A DNA stretch of 64,000 bases from Hyphomicrobiales bacterium (GTDB lineage Bacteria; Pseudomonadota; Alphaproteobacteria; Rhizobiales; Methylopilaceae). Shown here piece by piece: positions 22,284 through 60,303 of this stretch (positions within the stretch are counted from its first letter, which is position 1; the number at the start of each line of letters is the position of its first letter). The stretch lies in assembly GCA_022842205.1 (NCBI GenBank), contig JALHQA010000009.1, positions 1 through 64,000 on the forward strand, in the 5' to 3' direction. Below the pieces are notes generated by a model that worked only from the letters and a program-made list of their open reading frames with translations, had not been told where the DNA came from and ran no database searches. A program made the position numbers and the translations under genes.

Positions 22284-22298
22284 GTTCTCTATATGTTC
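22284..22298. promoter_or_regulatory. SOS box (LexA site) between ssb and uvrA
   Basis: GTTC-TCTATAT-GTTC, an exact match to the alphaproteobacterial LexA site GTTC-N7-GTTC. It lies 115 bases before ssb and 96 before uvrA in their divergent promoter region, as seen in related bacteria, so one site may control both. Confidence 0.88.
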
Positions 22299-33537: not shown

Positions 33538-33573
33538 TTGCGGAACAATCAAGGAACAGTTAGGGTCTGTTCC
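33538..33573 (+). promoter_or_regulatory. lexA promoter with SOS box and overlapping palindrome
   Basis: TTGCGG (33538-33543) and TAGGGT (33561-33566) are 17 bases apart. GAAC-AATCAAG-GAAC (33543-33557) is the SOS box GTTC-N7-GTTC read on the other strand and fills the spacer. The second GAAC also starts a palindrome GGAACAG-N7-CTGTTCC (33553-33573). LexA binding here would block its own promoter. Confidence 0.85.
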
Positions 33574-33613
33574 TGATTTGTTTCGGCCGATTCCGGCCAG
33601 TTTTGAGGCGAGC

Positions 33614-34324
33614 ATGCTGACGCGCAAGCAACATGAGCTTCTCCGCTACATCCATGAGCGGTTGAAGGAATCCGGCGTCCCGCCGAGCTTCGACGAGATG
33701 AAGGAAGCGCTGAACCTGCGCTCCAAATCCGGCATTCACCGCCTCATCACGGCGCTTGAGGAACGCGGCTTCATCCGCCGCCTGCCGAACCGCGCCCGCG
33801 CGCTCGAAGTCGTGCGCCTGCCGGAGTCGGTTGCGCCAAATATGCGCCCCGCTCCCGGCAAGTTCTCCCCCGGCGTGATCGAGGGCGGACTGGGGCGCGC
33901 GCGGCCGAAGCCCGTCGAGACGGAGGATCTGGATGCCTATTCCTCCATCGCGGTGCCGGTCATGGGCCGCATCGCGGCGGGCGTGCCGATCGAGGCCATC
34001 CAGACCCGCAGCCACACCATCGCGGTGCCGCCGGAAATGCTCGGCGGCGGCGATCACTTCGCGCTCGAGGTCCGCGGCGACTCGATGATCGAGGCGGGTA
34101 TTCTGGAAGGCGATGTCGTCGTCATCCGGAAATCGGACTCGGCGGAGACGGGCGACATCGTGGTGGCGCTGGTCGACGACGAGGAAGCGACGCTGAAGCG
34201 GCTGCGCAAACGTGGCGCCTCCATCGCGCTCGAGGCGGCCAACCCGGCCTATGAGACGCGCATCTTCGGACCCGACCGGGTCCGCGTGCAGGGCAAGCTT
34301 GTCGGCCTCATCCGCCGCTACTGA
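33614..34324 (+). CDS. lexA: SOS repressor LexA
   Basis: A 236-residue repressor and self-cleaving protease. N-terminal winged helix ([38 protein letters not shown]), then the cleavage site Ala122-Gly123 in RIAAGVP, nucleophile Ser157 in RGDSM and general base Lys195 in ATLKRL. Length fits alphaproteobacterial LexA. The ATG at 33614 is the family N-terminus. Its own SOS box shows autoregulation, and matching boxes at ssb/uvrA and before dnaE are its likely targets. Overlaps convergent comEC by seven bases. Confidence 0.98.
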
Positions 34325-49355: not shown

Positions 49356-50032
49356 AGCAAAACTCCGCGCCCCGCCGCATCCAAACCGCCACGCGATACA
49401 CCGAGTACCAGCGCGAACAGCCCCGCCAGCACAAAGCCGTCGAGTCTGTCCATCAGCCCGCCATGGCCGGGGATCAGCGAGCCGCTATCCTTTACCCCAA
49501 AACGGCGCTTGAGAGAGGACTCAAAAAGATCCCCGCCCTGGCTGAGGACGGCCGCCAGGGCGCTGACCAGCGCCACGGGCACAAGGGCCGAAGCACCGAA
49601 CCAGGCCGCGATTCCGGTCGCGGCTGCGACCGCAAACAGCGTGCCCCCGATAAAGCCGGCCCATGTCTTCTTCGGCGAAATCCTTGGCCAAAGCTTCGGG
49701 CCGCCGATCAGGCGTCCGCAGAAATAGGCCGCGGTGTCGCTGCCCCAGACCACCGCGAACAGCCACAGAACGGCCGCGAGGCCCATCTCGTTGTCCATAC
49801 GCAAAACAATCGGAGCCGCGAGCGCCACACCGGCGTAAAGAAGGCCCGGGAATTTCCAGCCGACGCTGGCGCCGGTGAGCTTCCACCACTCGTAGAAAAT
49901 CCCTGTTGCGGCCAGAAGCCAGAACAGAAAAAACGCAACGCCCCCGGCCCATGCCGCGCCGAGGGCAACCGTCGCCATGACGATTCCCGATGCTACGCGG
50001 GTCTTGAGTTCGGAGGATTTGCGCGGCGCCAA
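49349..50032 (-). CDS. cdsA: Phosphatidate cytidylyltransferase
   Basis: Makes CDP-diacylglycerol for phospholipid synthesis. The 227-residue membrane protein ends with the family signature SSLKRRFGVKDSGSLIPGHG followed by GLMDRLDGF; GSDTAAYFCGRLIGGPKLWPRISPKKTW is the other conserved stretch. Start is TTG at 50032, six bases after the uppS stop; the protein is shorter than E. coli CdsA (285), as is usual in this group. Confidence 0.93.
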   Translation of the reverse strand: MAPRKSSELKTRVASGIVMATVALGAAWAGGVAFFLFWLLAATGIFYEWWKLTGASVGWKFPGLLYAGVALAAPIVLRMDNEMGLAAVLWLFAVVWGSDTAAYFCGRLIGGPKLWPRISPKKTWAGFIGGTLFAVAAATGIAAWFGASALVPVALVSALAAVLSQGGDLFESSLKRRFGVKDSGSLIPGHGGLMDRLDGFVLAGLFALVLGVSRGGLDAAGRGVLLW

Positions 50033-55183: not shown

Positions 55184-55744
55184 TCACCAGCTCTTTGCCG
55201 GCCTTGGCAACACCCGCATCAGCGACCAGGCCAACCCCAGGACGGCCAGGCCAAGAATGACGGACACCGGCAGCCCCTGGTACCACACCATCACCAGCGC
55301 CGCCGCGCACAGCGCGATAACGCCCGGACCCGTGACATAGCGGCTGACTGGTGATGGAGGAGCAGGATTTTCCGTCACGACATAGCTCGCCAGTGCGTTC
55401 AGCAGCGTCGCAATCAGAACCAGCGTGGCAGCGATGGGCAGGATGAAACGCTCCAGCGGCAGCCAGACCTCGGCCGTGACGGTCGAAACGATGCCGTAGG
55501 CAATGATGATGACGCCGAGCCATGCAATCGTATGCGCAACGATCTCGAAAATCGCCAGCGTTTCGCGCGGCAGCTGACGTATGGACGGGCGAACCTTGAC
55601 CGCGGCCGCTGGCGTGGTTTCGGATTTCGGTGTTTCGCTCCGGGCCGGCCGTTCGAGCTTTTCCGGCTTTTCGGCCTTCTCCGGCTTCTTGAGGGCTTCC
55701 TCGGCCTTGAGGAGTACGTCGGTGCCTTGCATCTCGTTTGTCAT
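55184..55744 (-). CDS. Membrane protein with Lys/Glu/Pro-rich cytoplasmic tail, unknown
   Basis: A 186-residue protein. Residues 1-50 are a charged, proline-rich segment (ALKKPEKAEKPEKLERPARS); four helices follow from about residue 65. No known domain. It starts with ATG overlapping the dnaE stop (ATGA), so it is translated with dnaE, yet its nature is unrelated to replication. Function unknown. Confidence 0.72.
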   Translation of the reverse strand: MTNEMQGTDVLLKAEEALKKPEKAEKPEKLERPARSETPKSETTPAAAVKVRPSIRQLPRETLAIFEIVAHTIAWLGVIIIAYGIVSTVTAEVWLPLERFILPIAATLVLIATLLNALASYVVTENPAPPSPVSRYVTGPGVIALCAAALVMVWYQGLPVSVILGLAVLGLAWSLMRVLPRPAKSW

Positions 55745-58700
55745 TCGCTCACCACCTCCACGACACCCGGCACAGCCTTGAGCGCCGCCGCGATCTGCGG
55801 CGACACCCGGTAGCGGCCCGGCAGCCTGATATCGACTTCGGTCGCGCCATCGACCATCAGCACGAGATTGACCTCGCCCTCCCCGCGCTGAAGCTGGGCG
55901 GCGAGATGCTCGACCGGCGCCGCATCGCGCAGAAATATCTGCAGCGACTGAGCCAGTTTCGCGGCGGCATCCTCCAGCCGCTCGACCGCAACGATGCGCG
56001 CGCGCACCTCATCACCGTCGACCGAGGCCTGCAGCGACACGACGACGGATGTGTTGGGCTCCAGAAGATCGCGATATTCGCTGAGCCCCTCGGAAAACAT
56101 GATCGCTTCGTAATGACCGGACGGATCCGACAATTTAACGATGCCCATACGGTTTCCGGACTTCGTGCGCTTCTCCTGCCGCGAGAGAACGGTCGCCGCC
56201 AGACGGCCAGCCGTCGCGCCCTGGCGCACGGCCGCGGCAAAATCAGTCCAGCGCGAGATCTTCATACGCGCGAGCAGAGGCGCATAGGCATCGAGAGGAT
56301 GGCCGGTGAGAAAGAAGCCGATGGCTTCATATTCCTTGGTCAGCCGATCGCCCGGCAGCCACGCCTGCACATTGCGCGCGCGCAGCGGCGCGGGCCCCGT
56401 ATTGGCAAACAGACCGCCCTGCCCGCTGGCGGCATCTTCCTGCGCGTTTGACGCGATGGCGAGAATTTCTTCAAGCGACGCCACGACGGCGGCGCGGTTC
56501 GGCTCCAGCTCGTCGAAAGCACCGGCCTGCGCCAGGCTTTCGAGCGTGCGCTTGTTGACCTGTTTCGGATCGAGACGGCGCGCGAAGTCGGACAGATCCT
56601 TGAACGGCCTGTCGCCGCGCATGGCGACAATCGCAGCGGCGGCTTGCGCGCCGACGCCTTTTACAGCGGCGAGCGCATACCGGATCGCGCCTTCGTGCAC
56701 GGCGAATTCGACACCCGAGCGATTGATCGACGGCGGCTCGACGCGAATGCCAAGCCGCTCGCACTCGGTGCGGAACTCCGCGAGCTTGTCGGTCGAACCC
56801 ATGTCGAGCGTCATGGACGCAGCCATGAACTCGACCGGATAATTCGCTTTCAGATAGGCCGTGTGATAGGCGACAAGTGCGTACGCGGCGGCATGGCTCT
56901 TGTTGAAGCCGTAATCGGCGAATTTCTGCAGAAGATCGAAGATCGAATCCGCTTCGCCCTTCTTCACCTCCCGCTCGGTAGCGCCCTGGACGAAAATCGT
57001 GCGCTGCGCATCCATTTCCTTGCGGATTTTCTTGCCCATGGCGCGGCGCAGAAGATCGGCCTGGCCGAGCGAATACCCGGCCAGCACCTGCGCGATCTGC
57101 ATCACCTGTTCCTGGTAGATGATGACGCCGTAGGTTTCCTCGAGGATCGATTTGATCTTCGGATGAGGATAGTCCGGCTCCTCGCGTCCCTGCTTTCGGG
57201 CGCAATAGGTCGGGATATTGGCCATCGGACCAGGGCGGTACAACGCGACGAGCGCCACGATGTCCTCGAACCGGTCGGGCTTCATTTCCAGCAGGGCGCG
57301 CCGCATGCCCGCACTTTCCACCTGGAACACACCGACCGTCTCGCCCTTGGCCATCAGCATATATGCCTTGGCATCGTCGAGCGGGATCGTGGAAATATCG
57401 AGAGCGATGTTCCGCGCTTTCAGATGCGCGACGGTTTTCTCGATGGTCGTGAGCGTTTTCAGGCCGAGGAAGTCGAACTTCACAAGGCCCGCCTGCTCCA
57501 CCCATTTCATGTTGAACTGGGTGACCGGCATGTCGGAGCGCGGATCGCGATAGAGCGGCGTGAACTCCGCGAGCGGCCGGTCTCCGATGACGATGCCGGC
57601 CGCATGGGTCGATGCGTGACGGTACAGACCTTCGAGTTTCAGGGCGATGTCGATCATGCGGCCGACGCGCGGATCGGCCTCACGCTCCGCCGCGAATTTC
57701 GGCTCGTCCTTGATGGCCTGCGCCAGCGTGACGGGATTGGCCGGATTCTGCGGCACGAGCTTGCAGAGCTTGTCGACCTGTCCATACGGCATTTCCAGCA
57801 CGCGGCCGACATCGCGCATGACGCCGCGCGCCTGAAGCGTGCCGAAGGTGATGATCTGCGCCACACGGTTGAACCCGTACTTCTCCTGCACGTAGCGGAT
57901 GACTTCCTCGCGACGGTCCTGACAGAAATCGATGTCGAAGTCCGGCATCGAGACGCGGTCAGGATTGAGGAAACGCTCGAACAGAAGGCCGAAGCGCATG
58001 GGATCGAGATCGGTGATCGTCAGCGACCACGCAACCAGAGAGCCCGCGCCGGAGCCGCGGCCCGGGCCAACAGGAATCCCCTGCACTTTCGCCCATTTGA
58101 TGAAGTCGGCGACGATCAGGAAGTAGCCGGGAAACTTCATGCTCTCGATGACATTGAGCTCGAAGTCCAGACGCGCGGCGTAATCCTGCTCGGTGAAGCC
58201 TTCGGCGCGTCCATGCACCGATAGCCGCGCTTTCAGCCCCGCCTCCGCCTGCCGGCGCAGTTCCGCAGCCTCGTCGCCATCCTGCGTGAAGCGGGGGAGC
58301 ATCGGCTTGGTCGACTGCGGGCGGAACGCGCAGCGGCGCGCGATCTCGACCGTGTTCTCGATGGCTTCCGGCAAGTCCCTGAACAGCGCAATCATGTCCG
58401 CGCGCGACTTGAAGTAATGCTCCGGCGTGACCTGACGCCGGTCGCCGTCCGACACGAACCTGCCCTCGGCGATGGCGAGCAGCGCATCATGCGCCTCATA
58501 GTCCGCGGGCGTCGCGAAATAGCATTCGTTGGTGGCGACGAGCGGCAGTGCGTGCTCATAGGCCAGCGCAACCAGCCGTTTCTCGGCATAGCGCTCCGAA
58601 TCGAGGCCGTGACGCTGCAGCTCGACGTAAAGCCGGTCGCCGAACACATCCTTGAGCCGTTGCAGACGCCCGGCGGCGAGATCGTCCCGCGCGTCGGCGA

Positions 58701-59151
58701 TGGCCTCGTTCAGCGGCCCGCCGGGGCCGCCGGTAAGACAGATGAGGCCCTCGGCGTGAGCCGCGATCGCCGCGAAGCTGACAAACGGGTCGGACGGATC
58801 GTTTTCAAGGAAGCCGGCCGAGGTGAGCGCCAGAAGATTGGTGTAGCCCTGCTCCGAACGCGCCAGCAGAACCACCCTCGGCCGCTTGACCGAGCCCGGG
58901 CGGGCGCCCGGCGCCGACTCGCGATCGGCAAAATCGACGGCGATGGTGGCGCCGACGATGGGCTGCAGACCGCTCTCCGCGAACTTCTCCGAAAACTCCA
59001 GCGCACCGAACAGATTGCTGGTGTCGGTCAGAGCCAACGCGGGCTGCTTGTCGGCCTTCGCAAGGTCCGCGAGCTTCTTGATCGGCAGTGCGCCCTCAAG
59101 CAGCGAGAAAGCCGAATGGACATGCAGATGAACGAAACCGACATCCTGCAT
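55741..59151 (-). CDS. dnaE: DNA polymerase III alpha subunit
   Basis: Replicative polymerase. The 1136-residue protein has an N-terminal PHP domain (VHLHVHSAFSLLEGALPIKK), palm-domain catalytic Asp motif PDFDIDFCQDRREEVIRYVQ, GRGSGAGSLVAWSL, YQEQVMQIAQVLAGYSLGQAD, a helix-hairpin-helix region (IRYALAAVKGVGAQAAAAIV) and a C-terminal OB fold (GRLAATVLSRQEKRTKSGNR). It begins 22 bases after a 36-residue peptide gene that has an SOS box, so it may be partly damage-inducible. Confidence 0.98.
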   Translation of the reverse strand: MQDVGFVHLHVHSAFSLLEGALPIKKLADLAKADKQPALALTDTSNLFGALEFSEKFAESGLQPIVGATIAVDFADRESAPGARPGSVKRPRVVLLARSEQGYTNLLALTSAGFLENDPSDPFVSFAAIAAHAEGLICLTGGPGGPLNEAIADARDDLAAGRLQRLKDVFGDRLYVELQRHGLDSERYAEKRLVALAYEHALPLVATNECYFATPADYEAHDALLAIAEGRFVSDGDRRQVTPEHYFKSRADMIALFRDLPEAIENTVEIARRCAFRPQSTKPMLPRFTQDGDEAAELRRQAEAGLKARLSVHGRAEGFTEQDYAARLDFELNVIESMKFPGYFLIVADFIKWAKVQGIPVGPGRGSGAGSLVAWSLTITDLDPMRFGLLFERFLNPDRVSMPDFDIDFCQDRREEVIRYVQEKYGFNRVAQIITFGTLQARGVMRDVGRVLEMPYGQVDKLCKLVPQNPANPVTLAQAIKDEPKFAAEREADPRVGRMIDIALKLEGLYRHASTHAAGIVIGDRPLAEFTPLYRDPRSDMPVTQFNMKWVEQAGLVKFDFLGLKTLTTIEKTVAHLKARNIALDISTIPLDDAKAYMLMAKGETVGVFQVESAGMRRALLEMKPDRFEDIVALVALYRPGPMANIPTYCARKQGREEPDYPHPKIKSILEETYGVIIYQEQVMQIAQVLAGYSLGQADLLRRAMGKKIRKEMDAQRTIFVQGATEREVKKGEADSIFDLLQKFADYGFNKSHAAAYALVAYHTAYLKANYPVEFMAASMTLDMGSTDKLAEFRTECERLGIRVEPPSINRSGVEFAVHEGAIRYALAAVKGVGAQAAAAIVAMRGDRPFKDLSDFARRLDPKQVNKRTLESLAQAGAFDELEPNRAAVVASLEEILAIASNAQEDAASGQGGLFANTGPAPLRARNVQAWLPGDRLTKEYEAIGFFLTGHPLDAYAPLLARMKISRWTDFAAAVRQGATAGRLAATVLSRQEKRTKSGNRMGIVKLSDPSGHYEAIMFSEGLSEYRDLLEPNTSVVVSLQASVDGDEVRARIVAVERLEDAAAKLAQSLQIFLRDAAPVEHLAAQLQRGEGEVNLVLMVDGATEVDIRLPGRYRVSPQIAAALKAVPGVVEVVSE

Positions 59152-59173: not shown

Positions 59174-59284
59174 TCAAACCACCGGCAGTACGTCGGCCCA
59201 CATCAGGACCATGGCGATAAAGATTGCGACCGCGCCGAACTCAGCGACGTCTTCAAGAAACCGGCTGAACTTCCGAATGGCCAT
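59174..59284 (-). CDS. 36-residue SOS-controlled membrane peptide (SidA-like candidate)
   Basis: ATG at 59284, GGGAGG five bases upstream, TGA at 59176-59174. The peptide begins MAIRKFSRFLEDVAEFG (basic, amphipathic) and continues into a single hydrophobic helix ending ADVLPVV. An exact SOS box lies 32 bases before the ATG. Size, topology and control match SOS-induced membrane peptides; Caulobacter SidA (29 residues, inhibits the divisome at FtsW) is the closest precedent in this class of bacteria, though I cannot align the sequences. Expression, strong ribosome site and dnaE linkage make it a likely real gene. Confidence 0.72.
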   Translation of the reverse strand: MAIRKFSRFLEDVAEFGAVAIFIAMVLMWADVLPVV

Positions 59285-59316
59285 ACGCGCCTCCCGTTTT
59301 CCACTAGCCCTAATGT

Positions 59317-59331
59317 GTTCTTGTTTTGTTC
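59317..59331 (-). promoter_or_regulatory. SOS box upstream of the 36-residue peptide and dnaE
   Basis: GTTC-TTGTTTT-GTTC, exact match to the alphaproteobacterial LexA site and the same form as the boxes at ssb/uvrA and lexA. A minus-strand TTGACA at 59351-59346 could be the -35; the -10 would fall in the box, so LexA would block the promoter. No clear -10 hexamer was found. Confidence 0.85.
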
Positions 59332-59385
59332 TTTTTCAGTCAGTATGTCAAGCACGTTTTCAGCGGACGCCGCAAGCCATTGGCT

Positions 59386-59625
59386 TTACTTTATTTTTGG
59401 CGATTCAGGCCGCATCCGGGTCACTTTGTAGGCGTTCCCGGACGCGTCATAGGTCGTCCACTCGCCCACCTGTTCGCCGTTGTCGAAATGGCCGGAGCGC
59501 AGGCGCGTCCCATCCTTGCGGAAGAACTCCCAGTAGCCGGTCTGGACCTCGCCGGTCATCTCCCCGCGCGCCCATAGAGACCCATCCGTGTGGCGTTTCT
59601 CGAACGGCACCGGACGTGCACTCAT
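59386..59625 (-). CDS. MORN-repeat (YwqK-like) small protein
   Basis: A 79-residue protein made of MORN-variant strands: DGSLWARGEMTGEVQTGYWE, FFRKDGTRLRSGHFDNGEQV, GEWTTYDASGNAYK. These YwqK-type repeats form beta-hairpin stacks; some occur in toxin-antitoxin or adaptor proteins. No signal peptide, so cytoplasmic. It starts three bases after the lolD stop, at the end of the proS-lolCD operon. Role unknown. Confidence 0.75.
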   Translation of the reverse strand: MSARPVPFEKRHTDGSLWARGEMTGEVQTGYWEFFRKDGTRLRSGHFDNGEQVGEWTTYDASGNAYKVTRMRPESPKIK

Positions 59626-59628
59626 GGA

Positions 59629-60303
59629 CTAGACCTCGACGGCCAATCCGTCGCGGAGCGTGATGCGGCGATCCATACGCGCGGCAAGTTCGAGATTGTG
59701 GGTCGCCACAAGCGCGGCAAGGCCGGTTGCCTTGATGAGTTTGAAGAGGCTGTCGAACACCTCTTCCGCCGTGACGATGTCGAGATTGCCGGTCGGCTCG
59801 TCCGCGAACAGAACACGCGGCGCATTGGCCACGGCGCGGGCGATGGCGACACGCTGCTGCTCACCGCCCGACAGTTCGGACGGGCGATGCTCCGCGCGCT
59901 GCGGCAGGCCGAGCCAGGCCAGCAGTTCCTGCGCCCGCTTCTTCGCCTCGCGCTTGTCGAGCCCGCCGACGAGTTGCGGCAGCATCACGTTCTCAAGCGC
60001 CGAGAATTCCGGCAGCAGATGATGGAACTGATAGACGAAGCCGAGTTCCGCGCGGCGGATGCGCGTGCGTTCCGCGTCCGACAGGCCAGATGTGGCGCGG
60101 CCACCGATGATGACCTCGCCGCCGTCGGGATGTTCGAGCAGACCGGCGATGTGCAGCAGCGTGGATTTGCCGGCGCCCGACGGCGCCACAAGCGCGACCG
60201 CCTCGCCCGGATTAAGCGTGAAGTCGACGCCGCGCAGGATTTCGAGCGTTGTGTCGCCCTGCTTGTAGCGACGGTGGATGGCTTCCAGTCTCAGGCTTTC
60301 CAT
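59629..60303 (-). CDS. lolD: Lipoprotein-releasing system ATPase LolD
   Basis: ATPase of the LolCDE complex that releases outer-membrane lipoproteins. The 224-residue ABC protein has Walker [14 protein letters not shown]-loop [20 protein letters not shown] with the LolD-specific FHHLLPEF, signature [17 protein letters not shown], Walker [13 protein letters not shown] and H-loop VATHN. Ten bases after lolC. Confidence 0.96.

Follow-up and report, generated by a model that had tools for sequence, protein, structure and literature searches.

SidA of Caulobacter crescentus (CCNA_02004 in excerpts of PMC10769358) is the closest described counterpart of the small gene analyzed here. In the portions of PMC4211646 drawn on, it is a 29-amino-acid inner-membrane protein acting on FtsW, and it blocks division after Z-ring assembly via FtsW (and FtsN). 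The literature excerpts drawn on here treat SidA as a Caulobacter protein. Among the literature matches listed, a set apart from the original description of SidA (PubMed 21685367) and a 2004 paper on the LexA regulon, no title or abstract opening dealt with SidA in rhizobia. Other known systems were compared by description. DidA, also of Caulobacter, is a small membrane division inhibitor on the FtsW/I/N complex and is in this respect like the function proposed below, but it is SOS-independent, driven by DriD and FtsN-binding (excerpts of PMC4211646). YneA, SosA, and ChiZ are likewise damage-induced membrane division inhibitors, of which YneA interacts with FtsW (excerpts of PMC13396833), whereas they originate from Bacillus, Staphylococcus, and Mycobacterium. 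DinQ of Escherichia coli is an SOS-controlled single-helix peptide, but it is a toxin with an antisense RNA (PMC3567139, in part).

The peptide encoded in the window (the whole stretch of DNA analyzed, 64,000 nucleotides) has in common with SidA an association with LexA-type boxes, a length of about 30 residues, one membrane helix, a gene directly 5' of dnaE, and a core sequence motif. It differs in having 36 rather than 29 residues, with extra residues at the N terminus, and in having no direct match to a profile built from Caulobacteraceae only. The features of the locus, and those elsewhere in the window that bear on its regulation, are as follows.

59174..59284, minus strand: 36-codon gene for a SidA-like single-helix membrane peptide (frame call, conservation, AlphaFold2 model)
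59290..59295, minus strand: ribosome site GGGAGG (read from sequence)
59317..59331, minus strand: LexA-type (SOS) box, GAACAAAACAAGAAC on the coding strand (exact motif; recurs in relatives)
59346..59351, minus strand: TTGACA, possible -35 element, 14 bases 5' of the box (read from sequence)
55741..59151, minus strand: dnaE, DNA polymerase III alpha subunit (NF004226 match)
59629..60303, minus strand: lolD-like ABC ATPase, upstream of the box (best match TIGR02211, below cut-off)
33543..33557, no strand assigned: LexA-type box directly 5' of lexA (exact motif)
33578..34324, plus strand: lexA, frame from TTG, whose true start may be further in (TIGR00498, 186 bits)
22284..22298, no strand assigned: LexA-type box between divergent ssb and uvrA (exact motif)

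Read along the minus strand, the elements are lolD-like ATPase, a 79-aa open reading frame (ORF), TTGACA, LexA-type box, GGGAGG, peptide, and dnaE. The box reads GTTCTTGTTTTGTTC on the plus strand and lies 32 bases before the ATG of the peptide (59284-59282), whose 36-codon frame is MAIRKFSRFLEDVAEFGAVAIFIAMVLMWADVLPVV; the dnaE ATG, at 59151, follows the frame after 22 bases. The original prediction had given this same arrangement of exact box, 32-base spacing, GGGAGG, 36-codon frame, and dnaE, and its coordinates proved right on rereading. The identity of DnaE is secure (NF004226, 1493 bits versus a cut-off of 1002), and the lolD-like ATPase scores 266.5 bits versus a cut-off of 307.75 for TIGR02211. 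A purine-rich ribosome site resembling GGGAGG is present in the other three congeneric loci, and TTGAC is common to all four. No match to the full sigma-70 consensus was found. The 79-aa ORF between lolD and the box (59386-59625, minus strand) has a weak MORN_2 match (E value of 0.007, below cut-off). Outside the window, the same genome encodes a second DnaE-type polymerase (G000:C5:46248-49337; 529 bits, below the NF004226 cut-off), possibly DnaE2.

The presence of lexA and further boxes had been taken to make the SOS regulon real in this window. The boxes directly 5' of lexA and between ssb and uvrA bear this out, so a LexA regulon using this box type is likely here. The number of boxes does not: the window holds four exact boxes versus a mean of 2.06 expected, and 15 of 100 shuffles held four or more. 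Because this count is not above chance, the motif alone is no proof, and it is the one observation that would favor the reading in which the SOS box belongs to dnaE and the 36 codons next to it are open by chance. The fourth exact box (49757-49771), inside a 227-aa ORF, is probably a chance occurrence; that ORF, which we take to be CdsA-like, had no NCBIfam match at 1e-40.

Conservation already contradicts a chance frame. Each of the three congeneric genomes that were searched contains the 36 residues, at identities of 83, 66, and 57% (E values of 9e-16 to 3e-8), and every pairwise comparison among the four congeners (six in total) gave a pN/pS value between 0.24 and 0.46, with pN about equal to or greater than pS in the two shifted frames. 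Among 101 genomes there were 37 further matches at an E value of ≤10; by manual comparison of match and dnaE positions, 21 lie within 320 nucleotides (nt) 5' of dnaE on the same strand and 16 do not. Read by eye, about half of 95 dnaE upstream regions from the window's order have a box followed by a short membrane-helix frame. An alignment of 48 peptides from the order has the core D..AL.S...F, and F22 of the window peptide is kept in at least 90% of the rows. A search for conserved short frames between box and dnaE, proposed with the original prediction, recovered the frame across relatives; it is kept in the congeners and across the order. Since it is conserved between the LexA box and dnaE in relatives, we conclude on comparative sequence grounds that the 36-codon frame is a real gene. 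With pN/pS below 0.5, retention across the order, and the profile statistics given below all against it, the chance of an accidental frame is close to nil.

The predicted product resembles SidA in its small size and single membrane helix: it has 36 amino acids with one predicted helix, which spans residues 2 to 30 in a single-sequence AlphaFold2 model (mean pLDDT of 93.6). Its best 17-residue hydropathy is 2.32. Pfam and NCBIfam contain no family matching the peptide at an E value of ≤1.

Short hydrophobic helices can agree through composition. A profile of 33 peptides from the order, made without the window's own family, detected the window peptide at 8.5e-11 among 2,465 frames from both strands and, among the same frames, three loci of Caulobacter (L311, L314, and L322) with E values between 4e-5 and 1.4e-4; the best antisense frame over three profiles had an E value of 1.1. 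With this profile, none of 2,000 full and none of 2,000 segment shuffles of the window peptide came near the real score. Under the order profile, four of the five peptides from Caulobacteraceae outscored every one of their shuffles, the Asticcacaulis peptide (5.6 bits) falling within its own, and hhalign aligned the order and Caulobacteraceae profiles with a probability of 93 and an E value of 3.3e-7. The core D/E..AL.S...F is common to the order and Caulobacter peptides. In the reverse direction, the Caulobacteraceae-only profile gave no match to the window peptide (-0.8 bits, equaled or beaten by 1,186 of 2,000 full and 897 of 2,000 segment shuffles), and its scores for the peptides of Bradyrhizobium and Sinorhizobium were weak, bordering on those of the shuffled versions. 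Because that profile misses the window peptide, the kinship with the Caulobacter peptides, as seen in these profile comparisons, runs via intermediates. The suggestion that the frame is a SidA homologue is supported accordingly, with the link made through intermediates. The missing direct match and the longer N terminus could also mean that a SidA-family peptide has taken on a changed role or target in this lineage; the retained core speaks against this, and we think it unlikely.

The original prediction had tentatively placed sidA beside dnaE in Caulobacter, and in sequence the adjacency holds. Two genomes encode ParB proteins that match PDB chain 6t1f, which we take to be C. crescentus ParB, at 100% and 99% identity over 169 residues. 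Each has a single SidA-like frame at an E value of ≤5, of 29 aa and directly 5' of dnaE, the two frames being near twins; the first genome has 35 nt between the end of this frame and the presumed ATG of dnaE. Two additional weak matches (E values of 0.67 and 2.0) occur in a third Caulobacter genome, and in all four Caulobacter genomes the sole strong match sits 5' of dnaE. The 30 genomes in the dnaE search that included Caulobacter were hand-picked, and in 13 cases the choice was based on a ParB match. Among the named records, a 29-residue frame precedes dnaE in a Caulobacter metagenome-assembled genome (L322), three Brevundimonas, three of four Phenylobacterium, and one Asticcacaulis, and the frames at L330 and L334 are longer than 29 residues by first start. 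The Caulobacterales family designated f55 was considered as Caulobacteraceae, but its ParB identity of 51 to 61% argues against this. The 29-residue frame directly 5' of dnaE in the two ParB-matched genomes has the published length of SidA and so supports this adjacency. The locus numbers fit as well: with sidA as CCNA_02004, dnaE as CC1926, recN as CC1983 (excerpts of PMC1839093), and recN again as ccna_02062 (excerpts of PMC12700426), sidA would fall within one or two genes of dnaE. The window and the Caulobacter genomes thus agree in having the gene directly before dnaE, and they agree in the preceding LexA box as a motif.

The range of box and peptide was surveyed in dnaE upstream regions. 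A peptide was called from the best of three profiles at an E value of ≤0.01, a box was counted if exact and within 550 bases of a conserved dnaE motif, and the control for boxes was a plain base shuffle. In the order, 50 of 95 readable regions have a box (base shuffles of the same 95 stretches: mean of 1.1, maximum of 5) and 52 have the peptide; box and peptide, box only, peptide only, and neither occur in 45, 5, 7, and 38 (Fisher, 5e-14). As the order profile was partly built from this set, its peptide counts are partly so by construction. In the same sequence of categories, the named records (boxes in 32 of 80, peptides in 36) gave 31, 1, 5, and 43 (8e-16); the other class families (boxes in 13 of 79, peptides in 4) gave 4, 9, 0, and 66 (5e-4); and Caulobacterales family f55 (boxes in 22 of 29, peptides in 11) gave 11, 11, 0, and 7 (0.03). 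Box and peptide were not associated in the second Caulobacterales set (boxes in 17 of 28, peptides in 21; 14, 3, 7, and 4; P = 0.38), in which most peptide-only loci have one-mismatch boxes. Shuffle means for box counts over all sets were 0.3 to 1.1. Altogether, 19 peptide loci have no exact box; of these, 13 carry one or more boxes with a single mismatch and 6 have none in the stretch examined, which for some of them was set by an over-long start. By eye, a small membrane frame below the E cut-off is visible in most f55 box-only loci and in several loci of the class set. At nine loci (L013, L025, L367, L368, L371, L376, L377, L380, and L399), GTTCN7GTTC, in the opposite orientation, closely follows GAACN7GAAC 5' of the peptide.

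These sets are defined as follows. The order set comprised 101 genomes, one without a dnaE match, and 5 of its 100 regions were dropped when the start motif was not found (L009, L016, L031, L064, and L127). One of the 80 class regions (L211) was dropped on the same ground, its peptide nonetheless being visible. Regions were placed for 29 of 30 f55 genomes and 28 of 30 other Caulobacterales. Eight loci (class2) chosen by profile match were excluded from the counts; one genome (G152) is present in two sets (L230 and L312), and another (G336), of the window's order, sits in the class set. The named set is an uneven sample, made up of the best 80 records when at least 586 were ranked by how closely their DnaE resembles that of Caulobacter, and was grouped into families by title. 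Within it, the peptide occurs in Bradyrhizobium (4/4), Stappia (2/2), Phenylobacterium (4/4), Brevundimonas (3/3), and Sinorhizobium (1/1), and L025, a locus of the window's order, encodes a peptide that differs little from the Bradyrhizobium ones, so that the window is probably from the same order as Bradyrhizobium. None of the 22 named Rhodobacteraceae loci (among L343-L400) carries an exact LexA-type box or a SidA-like frame 5' of dnaE, and both named Azospirillum records lack box and peptide. A class-wide profile search gave a match at an E value of ≤1 in 82 of 241 genomes, with many matches away from dnaE; comparing part of the match list by eye, we found at least nine genomes outside the order with a match within 300 nt 5' of dnaE on the same strand (G102, G103, G108, G166, G204, G218, G222, G228, and G299).

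The box motif, the dnaE neighborhood, and the homology together support an SOS-induced, SidA-like division inhibitor, and we consider it highly probable, judging from sequence comparison, that the peptide is a SidA homologue that inhibits FtsW-dependent division upon SOS induction. LexA bound at 59317-59331 would repress the gene; DNA damage would lead to LexA cleavage and expression of the 36-residue peptide, which would enter the inner membrane as a single helix. There, as has been published for SidA in Caulobacter, it would most likely prevent activity of FtsW/FtsI/FtsN, the complex for septal wall synthesis, so that division would be delayed with the Z ring retained. Models from 2026 place SidA at TM7 of FtsW, on the opposite side from YneA; their authors call them not of high confidence, and by these excerpts of PMC13396833 the contact of SidA with FtsW may differ from that of YneA, a point we count against our explanation.

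Two other roles for the peptide gene deserve consideration. TisB of E. coli is an SOS-controlled single-helix toxin with an antisense RNA. A single hydrophobic helix behind a LexA-type box would also suit a toxin like TisB or DinQ, made in the SOS response and depolarizing the membrane, DinQ being a toxic single transmembrane peptide (PMC3567139, in part), but homology and neighborhood indicate SidA, and we hold a toxin to be very unlikely. The position directly 5' of dnaE, with a gap of 22 bases in the window, could instead mark a leader frame that regulates dnaE and makes no working peptide. Yet over 124 loci the peptide stop lies anywhere between 37 and 320 nt (median of 131) from the conserved dnaE motif, which speaks against a mere leader, and the amino acid sequence itself is kept; we give this reading hardly any weight.

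The same 22-base gap, together with the absence of any terminator-like site on the dnaE strand in the window, suggests that SOS transcripts continue into dnaE. It is conceivable, if somewhat doubtful, that sidA-dnaE is an ancestral SOS operon in a large part of the Alphaproteobacteria, in which one LexA-controlled transcript would both brake division and refill the replicative polymerase, and which lineages such as Rhodobacteraceae lost or never had. Should the family prove real in groups such as Bradyrhizobium, Sinorhizobium, Stappia, and Caulobacterales, a SidA-type peptide would be likely to have served as the ancestral checkpoint for DNA damage in much of the class. Were this true, many natural variants would be at hand for mapping the FtsW contact, and rhizobial division arrest after DNA damage would become directly testable.
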